Source: Haloterrigena gelatinilytica
Lineage (GTDB): Archaea; Halobacteriota; Halobacteria; Halobacteriales; Natrialbaceae
Length of the DNA stretch: 64,000 nucleotides
Reading direction: 5' to 3'
Assembly: GCF_013342145.1 (NCBI RefSeq)
Contig: NZ_JABUQZ010000001.1
Span: 3,968,001-4,032,000, forward strand
Under the pieces are notes generated by a model. It was given only the letters and a program-made list of their open reading frames with translations. It was not told the origin of the DNA and made no database searches. Position numbers and translations under genes: made by a program. Of this stretch, positions 4,344-43,727 are shown piece after piece; within the stretch, counting starts at the first letter, position 1; each line of letters begins with the position of its first letter.

Positions 4344-4425
4344 CGCCTCGGGGTCAAGTGGTTCGAGAGAGCAAAGCTCTCTCGTCATCACGGAAGACCT
4401 CCGGTCTTCCGAACGACCCCGAGGC
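4344..4425 (-). ncRNA. Three-way-junction structure at the tnpB 3' side (candidate omega/sot RNA region)
   Basis: A perfect 11-bp inverted repeat (4345-4355 with 4415-4425, GCCTCGGGGTC) encloses two perfect hairpins. One is 4364-4372 with 4376-4384 (loop AAA) and the other is 4391-4399 with 4403-4411 (loop TCC). The result is a compact three-way junction directly downstream of tnpB on its coding strand. In this superfamily the 3' end of tnpB and the adjacent right end produce a guide (omega) RNA, and in haloarchaea sense-overlapping transcripts have been described at this place. The structure is seen directly; the RNA function is inferred. The second hairpin belongs to a palindrome family found elsewhere in the window. 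Confidence 0.45.
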
Positions 4426-40069: not shown

Positions 40070-40455
40070 CAGTGACCGGTCGTACCGAGGGACGACCCAT
40101 TATTACAGCCCTGATAAGCGGCGCTTCCCGAATCGGTGGTAATACGGGTCCTACGCGGCCGTATCGGATACTTTCGAAAGTTTGAGCGCAGCGGAACGGT
40201 CTTTATGCACTTCCCAACCGACACGAGCGCGGTGTTCGACGGAACTTCTGGCTGTTCGTACCCAAGGCGGACCGACCACTCACGCCAACGGGGTCCGCTC
40301 GAGATCTACGCGGACCTTTTTCTCGTCGGGTTCACTCCGTTCACCCTCCTCCAAAAAATCTCGACCAAAAACACCGGAAGAACTCCGTTCTTCCGAGCCC
40401 TCGTTCACTTCGTTCACGAGGAAGACCGCTCGTTCGCTCCGCTCACTCGCGGTAC
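40070..40455. other. Intergenic region with promoter-like box and stacked palindromes
   Basis: This is 386 bases between a lipoprotein gene and the radical SAM gene. It contains a TATA-like TCTTTATG at about 40199-40206 and a C/T-rich and A-rich tract (CCAAAAAATC) around 40355. It then holds a run of palindromes from 40375 to 40452. A frame across it has no family character. It may encode a small RNA or simply hold a dispersed repeat. Confidence 0.5.
40375..40452 (+). repeat. Bipartite palindromic module, intergenic copy
   Basis: Hairpin A is CGGAAGAAC-TCC-GTTCTTCCG (40375-40395, nine perfect pairs), followed by spacer AGC. Hairpin B is CCTCGT, an 11-base loop, and ACGAGG (40399-40421). A third weaker palindrome with CCGC/GCGG ends follows (40426-40452). 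The A-AGC-B arrangement is the same as that repeated inside the histidine kinase gene at 43.2-43.4 kb, including the CGGAAG start of hairpin A. Confidence 0.6.
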
Positions 40456-41451
40456 TTACGCCAGCGGCGTCCGCTCGACCACTTGCCCGTCGTAGGTCGG
40501 ATACTGCTCGACGATTTCACCGTCCTCGAGGTCGCCCTCTTCGATCATCTCCTCTAAGAGCCACCAGGCGACCTCGACGTGGTTCGTCTTGACGGTGTAG
40601 AACTCTTCGGGGACGCCGAGGGCCTCGAACTCCTCGGGATCCGCACGGGTCTTGCCGTAGACGAGCGTGCCGTCGTCGGTGATGTCGTCGAACTCGCGGC
40701 GGATGTTCCGCGCCATGCGCTTGAGACGGCGGCGGTGCTGGGCCGCGTCCTTGAACACGGACGTACAGAAGTAGACCTTCTCGTGGTCGCCCATCACCTC
40801 GAGGATCTCCTCGCGGGAGCCCTCGACGGCGCTCATGTGGTCTTCTTTGAGTTCGAAGCCCTGCTCCTGCATCCGGCGGTAGTTCCCGTCGCTCATCTCG
40901 AACTCGTTGACGTTGCAGAACTCCGCTGCGCCCTCGTCCAAGAACTCGAGGAACTCCTCTTCGGCGCGGATGCCGGGAATCTCGAACGCGGGGGTCAGCC
41001 CCTCCTCGCGAGCGATGTGAAGGATTTCCTCCCACTCGGTGCCGTGGAGGTCGCCCCACTGTTCGTAGGGCGGATGGAAGCGAATCTCGTCGAGGCCGGC
41101 CTCGGAGAGCCGTCGCATGTTCTCGCGACCGCCCGTGATACCCGTATAGAGGTGGGTGTGGTGGTCCTCGCCGAACTCGTCTTTCAGGAGTTCGAGGTAG
41201 TGGCAGGTCCGATCGAGGGCCTCTTGGGGTTCGCCGCCGGTGATCGACGTTCCCAGCGCGTCCATCCGCTTTGCCTCCGTGATGACGTCCTCGTCGGACT
41301 CGACGAGTCGCTCGTTGGCGTAGACGTCGGTGACGTTCTTGCGGTTCTCGCCGAGCGGGCAGTAGAAGCAGTCGCGCTGGTCGCAGTAACCGTAGACGAA
41401 CAGCACCATCTTGCCGCCTTTCGCGCACTGCTCACAGCCCTTCGAGATCAT
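40456..41451 (-). CDS. Radical SAM protein (COG2108 type), function unknown
   Basis: The protein of about 331 residues has a Cys cluster GYCDQRDCFYC (Cys23, Cys28, Cys31) for the [4Fe-4S] centre, spaced CX4CX2C instead of the usual CX3CX2C. Another pair (Cys6, Cys9) lies in GCEQCAKGGK. A SAM-binding SITGGEPQEAL follows, and a TIM-barrel pattern continues to about residue 235. It is related to pyruvate-formate-lyase-activating-type proteins conserved in archaea. The ATG at 41451 is chosen; a GTG at 41478 would add nine residues. It lacks the SPASM Cys region expected of an anaerobic sulfatase maturase. Confidence 0.82.
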   Translation of the reverse strand: MISKGCEQCAKGGKMVLFVYGYCDQRDCFYCPLGENRKNVTDVYANERLVESDEDVITEAKRMDALGTSITGGEPQEALDRTCHYLELLKDEFGEDHHTHLYTGITGGRENMRRLSEAGLDEIRFHPPYEQWGDLHGTEWEEILHIAREEGLTPAFEIPGIRAEEEFLEFLDEGAAEFCNVNEFEMSDGNYRRMQEQGFELKEDHMSAVEGSREEILEVMGDHEKVYFCTSVFKDAAQHRRRLKRMARNIRREFDDITDDGTLVYGKTRADPEEFEALGVPEEFYTVKTNHVEVAWWLLEEMIEEGDLEDGEIVEQYPTYDGQVVERTPLA

Positions 41452-41669
41452 TCGAGGGAACGTACTGGCCCGACTCACAAAAGCCGTGCGAAACGCGGTT
41501 CTCGGGTGGGCCCCGTCACCGTGGGCCGCTGTCGCGCGGCGACGTCACGCGAACACCGCGGTCGCGACCGCCGGATGGCGGCCCGTCGGTGCGGACCCGA
41601 ACTGCGTCTCGCGTCGCCTCTCGGTGCCCAGTATGCTATTATACGATTAGCCCGAACGATGGGCCATCA

Positions 41670-43727
41670 ATGGCAGCCGGGATCCACGTCCTGTGTGTCG
41701 ACGACGACCCGGACGTCCGTTCGGTAACTGCCGCCACACTCGAGCGAGCCCGATCGGAGTTCGTCGTCTCGACGGCGACCTCCGGACGGGACGGACTGTC
41801 GCGATTGGACGGGACCGAGAGCGAGCCGGAGCGCCCCGCCATCGACTGTATCGTCAGCGACTACGAGATGCCCGGAATGGACGGCCTCGAGTTCCTCGCG
41901 GCGGTTCGCGAGCGCGACCCGGAGATGCCGTTTCTCCTGTTCACCGGAACGGGATCCGAAGCGATCGCCAGCGAGGCGATTTCGGCCGGCGTCACCGACT
42001 ACCTCCGGAAGGGGACGGGGACCGATCGGTACGCCGTCCTCGCGAACCGCATCGAGAACGCCGTCGAGAAACGCCGCGCGGAGCGGGCCAAACGCGAGAG
42101 CGAACGCGAACTCGAGCGGTATCGGACGCTCGTCGAAACGGTCGACGACCCCATGTACGTCCTGGACGCGGAGGGGAACTGCACGATCGTCAACGAGGCC
42201 TTCTGCGAACTGCTCGGCGTCGATCGGGACCGCATCGTCGGTGAATCGATTTCTGAGTTCATCTCCAGGGAGGCGCTCGAGCGCGGCGCCAAGACGGTGT
42301 ATCACCTCCACGGGAGCGACCGGACGTCCGATCGCTTCGAATTCACCATCGGAACCGAGGACGGCACGGAGCGCGTCGGCGAGGCGAACGTGACCGCCCT
42401 CACGGACGGCGACGGTCGGTTCACCGGCTCTACGGCCGTCGTTCGAGACATCACCGCGCGGAAGCGTCGGGAACGCGAACTCGCCCGGTACGAGCGGATC
42501 GTCGATCTCGCGCCGATCGCGCTGTTCGTCCTCGACGCGAACGCGACGATCACCTGGTGTAACGACGAGTTCGCCGACGCGTTCACCGAGGAGATCGACG
42601 CCCTGATCGGAACGCCGTTTCCGGAGCTCATCGAGCGGGGCTACTACGACGAGCGGGTGATCGGTAAGTACACCGACGAGGTCAGAGCGCTCCTCTCTTC
42701 GTCGGTCGACCGCACTCGAGCCAAGTACCAGGTCCGATTCCGGTCGAACGACGACGAGAAGCGGATCCACGACGTCCACACCGAGCTCCTCCCGCTCGAG
42801 GACGGAGAGTTCGTCGGCACGATACACGCGATCCGCGACATCACCCGACGACGGCGCTCCCAGCGGGAACTCGAGCGTCAGAACGATCGCTTGGAGGAGT
42901 TCGCGAGCGTCGTCAGCCACGACCTGCGCAATCCGTTGAACGTGGCGCGGGGCACGCTCGACCTCCACGCCGAGGACTGTCCGCAGTCGGGGGAGTCGAT
43001 CGATCGAATCCGCTGGTCGCTCCAGCGGATGGACGACCTGATCGACCGGCTCCTGTCGCTGGCCCGCCACGGACGAACGATCGGCGAGCAGACCCCGGTC
43101 TCGCTCTCGAGCAGCGTCCACAGAGCCTGGAACGCCGTCGATACCGCGAACGCCACCCTCGAGTGCGCCGTCGAGACTACGATCGTCGCCGACGAGGGCC
43201 GTCTGCAAGCGCTGCTCGAGAACTTGTTTCGGAACGCTGTCGAACACGGTTCGACAGGCTCTCCTTCGCACGCTCAGGAGGACGCCGTGGAGCACGGCTC
43301 CACGAGCCCTGACTCGCACGCTCGTCAGGACACCGGAAGACGCGGAGCGTCTTCCGAGCCCTCGGTCGCTGACGCTCCCGCGGACAGCGTGGAACACGGA
43401 TCTTCGGACGCCGACTCGAGGGCCCAACAGGAGCGATCCGGCGTCACCGTTACCGTCGGTCCCCTCGAGACCGACGCCGGCGACGATCGACCGGTACGGG
43501 GGTTCTACGTCGCCGACGACGGACCGGGGTTCGACTCGGAGCCCGACGACCTGTTCGAGTTCGGTTACACGACCGCCGAGGACGGCACCGGGTTCGGGCT
43601 GGCGATCGTCGAGGGAATCGCCGAGGCCCACGGTTGGACCGTGACCGCGCGAAACGGCGACGACGGCGGCGCGCGCGTCGAGATCAGCGGCGTCGACGTT
43701 CGCGACGATCGGTCGGGGCCGACGTAA
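41670..43727 (+). CDS. Hybrid sensor: receiver - PAS - PAS - histidine kinase
   Basis: The 685-residue cytoplasmic protein has an N-terminal receiver domain (phosphoacceptor Asp64, DDD at 11-13, Lys114) and two PAS domains (about 148-265 and 272-395). A HisKA domain follows with His417 in VVSHDLRNPL, then a HATPase_c domain with the N-box at Asn522 (LENLFRNAVEH), G1 DGPG (617-620) and G2 GTGFGLAI (639-646). Between N-box and G1 there is a roughly 60-residue insertion (about 528-589) in which VEHGS recurs at 524, 540 and 574; it is encoded by three tandem palindromic modules. The start at 41670 is set by the receiver strand. Its signal and partner are unknown. Confidence 0.92.
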   Translation: MAAGIHVLCVDDDPDVRSVTAATLERARSEFVVSTATSGRDGLSRLDGTESEPERPAIDCIVSDYEMPGMDGLEFLAAVRERDPEMPFLLFTGTGSEAIASEAISAGVTDYLRKGTGTDRYAVLANRIENAVEKRRAERAKRESERELERYRTLVETVDDPMYVLDAEGNCTIVNEAFCELLGVDRDRIVGESISEFISREALERGAKTVYHLHGSDRTSDRFEFTIGTEDGTERVGEANVTALTDGDGRFTGSTAVVRDITARKRRERELARYERIVDLAPIALFVLDANATITWCNDEFADAFTEEIDALIGTPFPELIERGYYDERVIGKYTDEVRALLSSSVDRTRAKYQVRFRSNDDEKRIHDVHTELLPLEDGEFVGTIHAIRDITRRRRSQRELERQNDRLEEFASVVSHDLRNPLNVARGTLDLHAEDCPQSGESIDRIRWSLQRMDDLIDRLLSLARHGRTIGEQTPVSLSSSVHRAWNAVDTANATLECAVETTIVADEGRLQALLENLFRNAVEHGSTGSPSHAQEDAVEHGSTSPDSHARQDTGRRGASSEPSVADAPADSVEHGSSDADSRAQQERSGVTVTVGPLETDAGDDRPVRGFYVADDGPGFDSEPDDLFEFGYTTAEDGTGFGLAIVEGIAEAHGWTVTARNGDDGGARVEISGVDVRDDRSGPT
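43237..43383 (+). repeat. Three tandem bipartite palindromic modules inside the kinase gene
   Basis: Module 1 has hairpin A 43237-43257 (9 bp, loop ACG) and hairpin B 43261-43280 (5 bp, loop TCGCACGCTC). Module 2 has A 43286-43304 (8 bp, loop ACG) and B 43308-43329 (6 bp, the same ten-base loop). Module 3 has A 43334-43356 (10 bp, loop GGA) and B 43360-43383 (5 of 6 pairs, loop TCGCTGACGCTC). The spacer between A and B is GCT, AGC and AGC. Stems differ between modules with pairing kept, while the B loops stay nearly constant. Confidence 0.7.

Follow-up and report, generated by a model that had tools for sequence, protein, structure and literature searches.

Palindromic DNA elements that lie in frame within protein-coding genes have been documented mainly in the Rickettsiales. 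These elements (RPEs) are small palindromic repeats that are dispersed in genomes and occur within the reading frames of numerous unrelated proteins as well as outside of genes. The palindromic elements of Rickettsia and Wolbachia have been treated by Ogata et al. (2002, 2005) and by Claverie and Ogata (2003) (cited in PMC3733652). REP elements, associated with RAYT transposases, are short hairpin repeats that are thought to be selfish, and some are found within genes (PMC3733652). The enterobacterial RU elements are MITE-like bacterial sequences of 103-168 bp that carry open frames and occur within genes (PMC2759123). Perfect inverted repeats have also been described within the coding genes of Nematomorpha mitochondria, where protein function is kept (PMC6649704).

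The repeat described here was recognized in 64,000 nucleotides of the genome of Haloterrigena gelatinilytica (this whole stretch is hereafter the window). Like RPEs, it is a dispersed palindromic repeat that is present in frame in unrelated proteins and has non-coding copies too, a likeness drawn from descriptions of kind rather than at the level of family sequences. It differs from RPEs in being archaeal, in its length of 45-48 bp, and in its AGC-joined hairpin pair, variable stems, GAC flank, and tandem arrays in kinases. In contrast to REP elements, it is often in frame in coding DNA and has no association with Y1 transposases. It comprises two adjacent hairpins instead of the terminal repeats of a MITE, and its GAC flank could be a 3-bp target duplication. 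Paired short hairpins and tandem arrays are not described for RU elements in PMC2759123. The Nematomorpha palindromes are long (up to 284 bp) and fall in conserved protein regions, whereas haloarchaeal copies are short, dispersed, and located in loops. A search of the open-access literature yielded no haloarchaeal description of the repeat, and an Rfam search of the array and of copies in right-end-like hairpins (see below) returned nothing above the gathering score. Overall, we consider it likely (roughly 80%) that the modules in the window belong to a short palindromic DNA element of the Halobacteria that is dispersed, protein-coding, and RPE-like, and that has been amplified and exchanged in a predicted disordered loop following the N-box of sensor kinases.

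Structure of the kinase array

The host of the array is a forward-strand gene (41589-43727) encoding a hybrid sensor histidine kinase of 712 amino acids (Pfam Response_reg, PAS, HisKA, and HATPase_c). A reading of the sequence alone (the sequence-only reading) had placed three tandem bipartite modules at 43237-43383 of this gene. These modules are real and are part of something larger, each being a unit of a haloarchaeal repeat that comprises a first hairpin (8-10 bp with a 3-nt loop), AGC(A), a second hairpin, and GAC, with unit lengths of 45 or 48 bp. The array begins immediately after the N-box Asn, and its frame is open, encoding the peptide NAVEHGSTGSPSHAQED-AVEHGSTSPDSHARQD-TGRRGASSEPSVADAPAD-SVEHGSS.

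All units are on the forward strand. Module 1 comprises a 9-bp first hairpin (CTGTCGAAC-ACG-GTTCGACAG; 43237-43257) that encodes (A)VEHGST and overlaps the N-box, followed by a GCT spacer and a second hairpin, CTCCT-TCGCACGCTC-AGGAG (43258-43280, the hairpin proper being 43261-43280). The first hairpin of module 2 (CGTGGAGC-ACG-GCTCCACG; 43286-43304) encodes VEHGST by other synonymous codons with its pairing intact, and is joined by an AGC spacer to CCTGAC-TCGCACGCTC-GTCAGG (43305-43329; hairpin proper, 43308-43329). The VEHGST codons are GTC GAA .. GGT TCG in module 1 and GTG GAG .. GGC TCC in module 2, such that every third-position change is mirrored by its pairing partner. Module 3 follows the same plan with a different, 10-bp first hairpin (CGGAAGACGC-GGA-GCGTCTTCCG; 43334-43356), then AGC and CCTCGG-TCGCTGACGCTC-CCGCGG (43357-43383; hairpin proper, 43360-43383), whose stem has a single mismatch and whose loop is 12 bases long. 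The corresponding arm of the paralogue L109 reads CCGAGG, as opposed to CCGCGG in the window, and pairs fully. A last, decayed unit (SVEHGSSDADSRAQQERSG; 43384-43436) returns the protein to its native fold.

A covariance model (CM) was built from 38 training sequences that were copies in fetched loci. It matched module 1 at 43238-43283 (64.9 bits, E = 7.6e-17) and module 2 at 43286-43331 (73.5 bits, E = 2.7e-19), but these two scores are no independent test because near-identical paralogous copies were included in the training set. Module 3 was matched at 43348-43385 (E = 0.0076) and the decayed unit at 43388-43433 (E = 0.47). Perfect stems of at least 8 bp with loops of 3-6 numbered 25 in the window versus 4-13 in codon-block shuffles.

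In a structure model of the kinase (16-sequence alignment, mean pLDDT of 70), the insert (residues 125-184) is predicted to form a disordered loop, with pLDDT < 50, that joins the N-box helix and the next strand. Orthologous kinases with and without the insert, a comparison put forward in the sequence-only reading, both exist; relatives with a plain NAIEHGG or NAVEHGG motif are common (e.g., L129, with 69% identity over the upstream query). In one further kinase (L061, genome G219), SRPQADD and VEHGST units are located between PAS-type domains, distant from the N-box.

Dispersal among genes and genomes

Module 3 matches a dispersed intergenic repeat. One copy of this repeat, CGGAAGAAC-TCC-GTTCTTCCG followed by AGC and CCTCGT-loop-ACGAGG, is located on the forward strand of the window at 40375-40421, 35 bp past the 3' end of a minus-strand ORF (40456-41478). 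It is the third-ranked CM match in the window (40376-40423; E = 0.0061), next after modules 1 and 2. AGC-linked hairpin pairs, not all of which are family-like, were detected at 10 places in 400 kb of the same genome versus 0-2 in shuffles; own-genome counts derive from pattern and model searches and from this 400 kb sample.

Non-kinase copies were also found when relatives were searched with a hairpin-2 pattern, and across ~85,000 species genomes the same pattern identified 83 stretches, almost only in Haloarchaea. By our own reading, 80 loci were classified as 54 kinase copies, 22 copies elsewhere, and 4 without a first hairpin; the last, which include both bacterial loci, look like chance matches. 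The 22 non-kinase loci, in which the first hairpin is full or partial, comprise 14 coding genes, 4 right ends, and 4 that are probably non-coding. In-frame units were identified in at least a dozen unrelated proteins, with Pfam hosts that include aldehyde dehydrogenase (ALDH), PPDK/PEP synthase, pol-beta thumb, PCC domain, DUF302, Rieske, AI-2E transporter, glutamate synthase, tetrapyrrole methylase, acyl-CoA dehydrogenase, enoyl-CoA hydratase, carboxyl transferase, PGA_cap, beta-CASP, and periplasmic-binding protein families. Non-coding copies comprise that at 40375-40421 plus about seven or eight loci (L391, L392, L396, L398, L399, L403, L406).

A covariance search of haloarchaeal genomes, as the sequence-only reading had advocated, bore out a lineage-wide distribution: with the model trained on kinase-type units, the element was matched in 35 of 43 Halobacteria genomes versus 1 of 204 others in a phylum-wide search. 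No single census is unbiased, since each began from the peptide, from hairpin 2, or from the kinase-trained model. The repeat peptide had no match in phages, and a search of plasmids with it matched one kinase.

Several related arrangements were observed. At 4364-4411 of the window, a stop codon is closely followed on its 3' side by a pair of perfect hairpins, CGAGAGAGC-AAA-GCTCTCTCG and CGGAAGACC-TCC-GGTCTTCCG, with 6 bases between them; the second is similar to the first hairpin of module 3. Intergenic copies at L391, L406, L124, and 40360-40375 of the window have in common a longer upstream consensus resembling GACCAAAAGCAC, which suggests that a larger intergenic form may exist. In ten loci (L178, L180, L187, L197, L198, L199, L232, L251, L300, and L302), the bipartite element is in antisense orientation within a larger hairpin, CCCC GTCGT ... 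ACGAC GGGG AGGATGTCA, that resembles the right end of an IS200/IS605 element. In L180 and L197, a TnpB-like zinc-ribbon ORF terminates just upstream of this hairpin. The right-end-like loci that were searched against Rfam had no match. In another family of the phylum, outside of the Halobacteria, L407 (genome G542) has 17 model matches to a two-hairpin repeat (e.g., GACAGCGTGGAGCAAAGCTCCACGAGTCTCGCGAAATCGGAGATTTCGCAAGAC).

Empty sites were examined in two non-kinase hosts. The ALDH gene has 45 extra bases in two genomes of the genus and lacks them in four others of the genus, and a CBS-domain gene of the window's own genome (C1:2299427) has 45 extra bases that are absent in its paralogue (C1:1400439) and in four relatives. 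Both inserts begin after GAC and end in GAC, with the left edge having drifted in one of the two ALDH copies (L320). Because each insert is exactly 45 bp and follows a GAC codon, the reading frame is kept. The GAC edges fit a 3-bp target duplication and a 45-bp element that ends in GAC equally well. When the flanks of 116 copies were inspected by eye, most had GACAG or AACAG/GC on the upstream side and GAC on the downstream side, and no GTAG or CGTC tag was noticed beside the hairpins.

All six frames of the consensus read as open. GC3 scoring nevertheless placed nearly all scorable hairpin-2-type coding copies in one frame, the exceptions being short or ambiguous, while some hairpin-1-type copies may differ, and some coding copies with longer loops (L389, L390, L393) may use a different frame. 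An element in frame adds a peptide rich in Ser and Asp, such as DSEERSSSSSRTQSDD.

Base pairing and array turnover

In the stem that encodes VEHGST, the Val and Ser codons have their third bases opposed, as do the Glu and Gly codons, and changes at all of these positions are synonymous. Among 260 distinct VEHGST copies, the Val-Ser pair was Watson-Crick in 237 (shuffled mean of 118, maximum of 150 in 1000 shuffles) and the Glu-Gly pair in 241 (shuffled mean of 128, maximum of 153), although these counts are not independent and the shuffles overstate significance because kinase copies are related. All four Val codons occur, each with the matching Ser codon. Pairing is slight or absent in control VEH copies that lack the second arm (Val-Ser, 54 of 155, shuffled 45, maximum 64; Glu-Gly, 65 of 155, shuffled 45, maximum 65), and there may be a slight excess in the Glu-Gly value, which equals the shuffle maximum. 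Across the 38 aligned units, 96.8% of cells were paired, with 105 double-change cells versus 40 when shuffled, and sliding the register lowered pairing to 28-42% (41.7% in the best slid register).

Pairing extends to bases that alter the protein. All 12 matches to the degenerate amino-acid pattern R[TP]Q[SA] were paired at the free sites, and all were RTQS or RPQA. Since the paired bases of hairpin 2 are non-synonymous, pairing there dictates residues; in the SPxSQAyzD type, the three variable stem positions were paired in 67, 59, and 61 of 75 copies versus 34, 24, and 28 when shuffled. Covariation at the level of nucleic acid inside coding DNA, as claimed in the sequence-only reading, is strong at synonymous sites, and pairing is a nucleic-acid property that is kept while bases and protein letters change. 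We argue this from the unrelated host genes, and the alternation of neighboring stems (see below) points the same way.

One alternative is that kinase genes keep the hairpins because their mRNA structure is under selection, e.g., for ribosome pausing or for the tuning of kinase levels. Pairing that survives synonymous change would be expected of such structures, as would the tendency of neighboring hairpins to differ in stem, which is typical of hairpins that fold independently. However, transposon-like ends, intergenic DNA, and genes for unrelated enzymes also carry the element, its copy number is variable, and it is missing from relatives. Preference for wobble pairs, in what are small tests, is also slight if present: kinase copies had 11 G-U and 6 A-C pairs (9 and 1 among internal copies alone, 2 and 5 among N-box copies), the 45-bp type had 15 and 14 in its first hairpin, and A-C was commoner than G-U in hairpin 2. 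With unrelated and non-coding hosts and no clear wobble-pair bias, we regard this alternative as improbable. The suggestion that the insert is a selfish or structural nucleic-acid element in a surface loop is supported as to a dispersed element in a predicted disordered loop, but not as to a functional mRNA structure.

Kinase arrays turn over faster than the genes that carry them and are common to paralogues of one genome. The array in the window is 96% identical to that of a same-genome paralogue, for which the upstream flank is 62% identical, and 65% identical to that of an orthologue, for which the flank is 94% identical. The loop of the first hairpin of module 3 is GGA in the window and its reverse complement, TCC, in both the paralogue L109 and the orthologue L128, this inversion being the sole difference within that hairpin. 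Adjacent VEHGST copies had the same stem type in 25 of 120 pairs versus 46 expected. Collectively, these observations suggest that kinase arrays recombine with one another and that hairpins undergo events of their own in the DNA. We rejected VEPCST as a common inverted form, as most apparent cases were the opposite strand of VEHGST; a single genuine inverted copy, in L077, was recognized among the matches listed.

Such data could also be read as tandem duplication of N-box coding DNA that is private to kinases, with hairpin-templated (quasi-palindrome) correction and no mobile element. Arrays do repeat the N-box peptide and recombine between paralogues, and flipped loops, including VEPCST in L077, were found; duplication and templated correction probably contribute to array growth. 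Yet this process accounts neither for the presence of the AGC-joined hairpins in right ends, intergenic DNA, and genes unrelated to the kinases nor for inserts of exactly 45 bp at GAC, and it is largely refuted by the non-kinase copies, leaving it quite unlikely as a full account. Least probable is a protein-level repeat, a useful acidic, Ser-rich linker whose codons merely look palindromic: one reading frame is dominant, the peptide is in keeping with the acidic loops of haloarchaea, and disorder is predicted for the insert, but protein constraint cannot couple Val/Ser or Glu/Gly third bases or limit residues to T-S or P-A, intergenic copies code for nothing, and the synonymous covariation refutes it as the sole explanation.

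Origin and significance of the element

If the modules are copies of a dispersed palindromic DNA element, as we favor, the element would spread by a copy-and-insert process that acts on DNA hairpins, and its arrays would grow and be transferred through recombination between paralogous kinases. Complementarity of the arms would be maintained at the DNA level, by recent copying, hairpin-templated correction, and flipping of loops, and not because folding of the mRNA is selected. Use of a single frame may reflect selection for an acidic, disordered linker that proteins can tolerate. The kinase branch may have succeeded because its first hairpin re-encodes the N-box; since that hairpin encodes VEHGST directly after the Asn, the residues that follow the N-box Asn are supplied anew. 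A more specific version of this account, which we judge an even bet, is that an undescribed mobile hairpin element of the Halobacteria enters genes in frame, immediately following Asp or Asn codons, and that re-encoding of the N-box by hairpin 1 in one kinase lineage allowed harmless insertion at a catalytic motif and subsequent amplification.

As a candidate mobilizing gene, the presence of Y1 transposase was uncoupled from the repeats among 100 genomes (Fisher p = 0.68), and PF01797 was absent from the window's own genome by Pfam. Y1 transposase was rejected as the mover on this lack of association, and the element does not depend on a resident copy of that enzyme.

An archaeal, lineage-wide family with a measurable DNA signature, in which the third positions of fixed codons covary, would indicate an independent origin of such protein-shaping elements. 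Because all six consensus frames are open yet one is mainly used, the element is well suited to a clean test of how protein arises from selfish DNA. The sensor kinases, in turn, vary naturally and rapidly in the length of this loop, so that effects on signaling can be tested across them.
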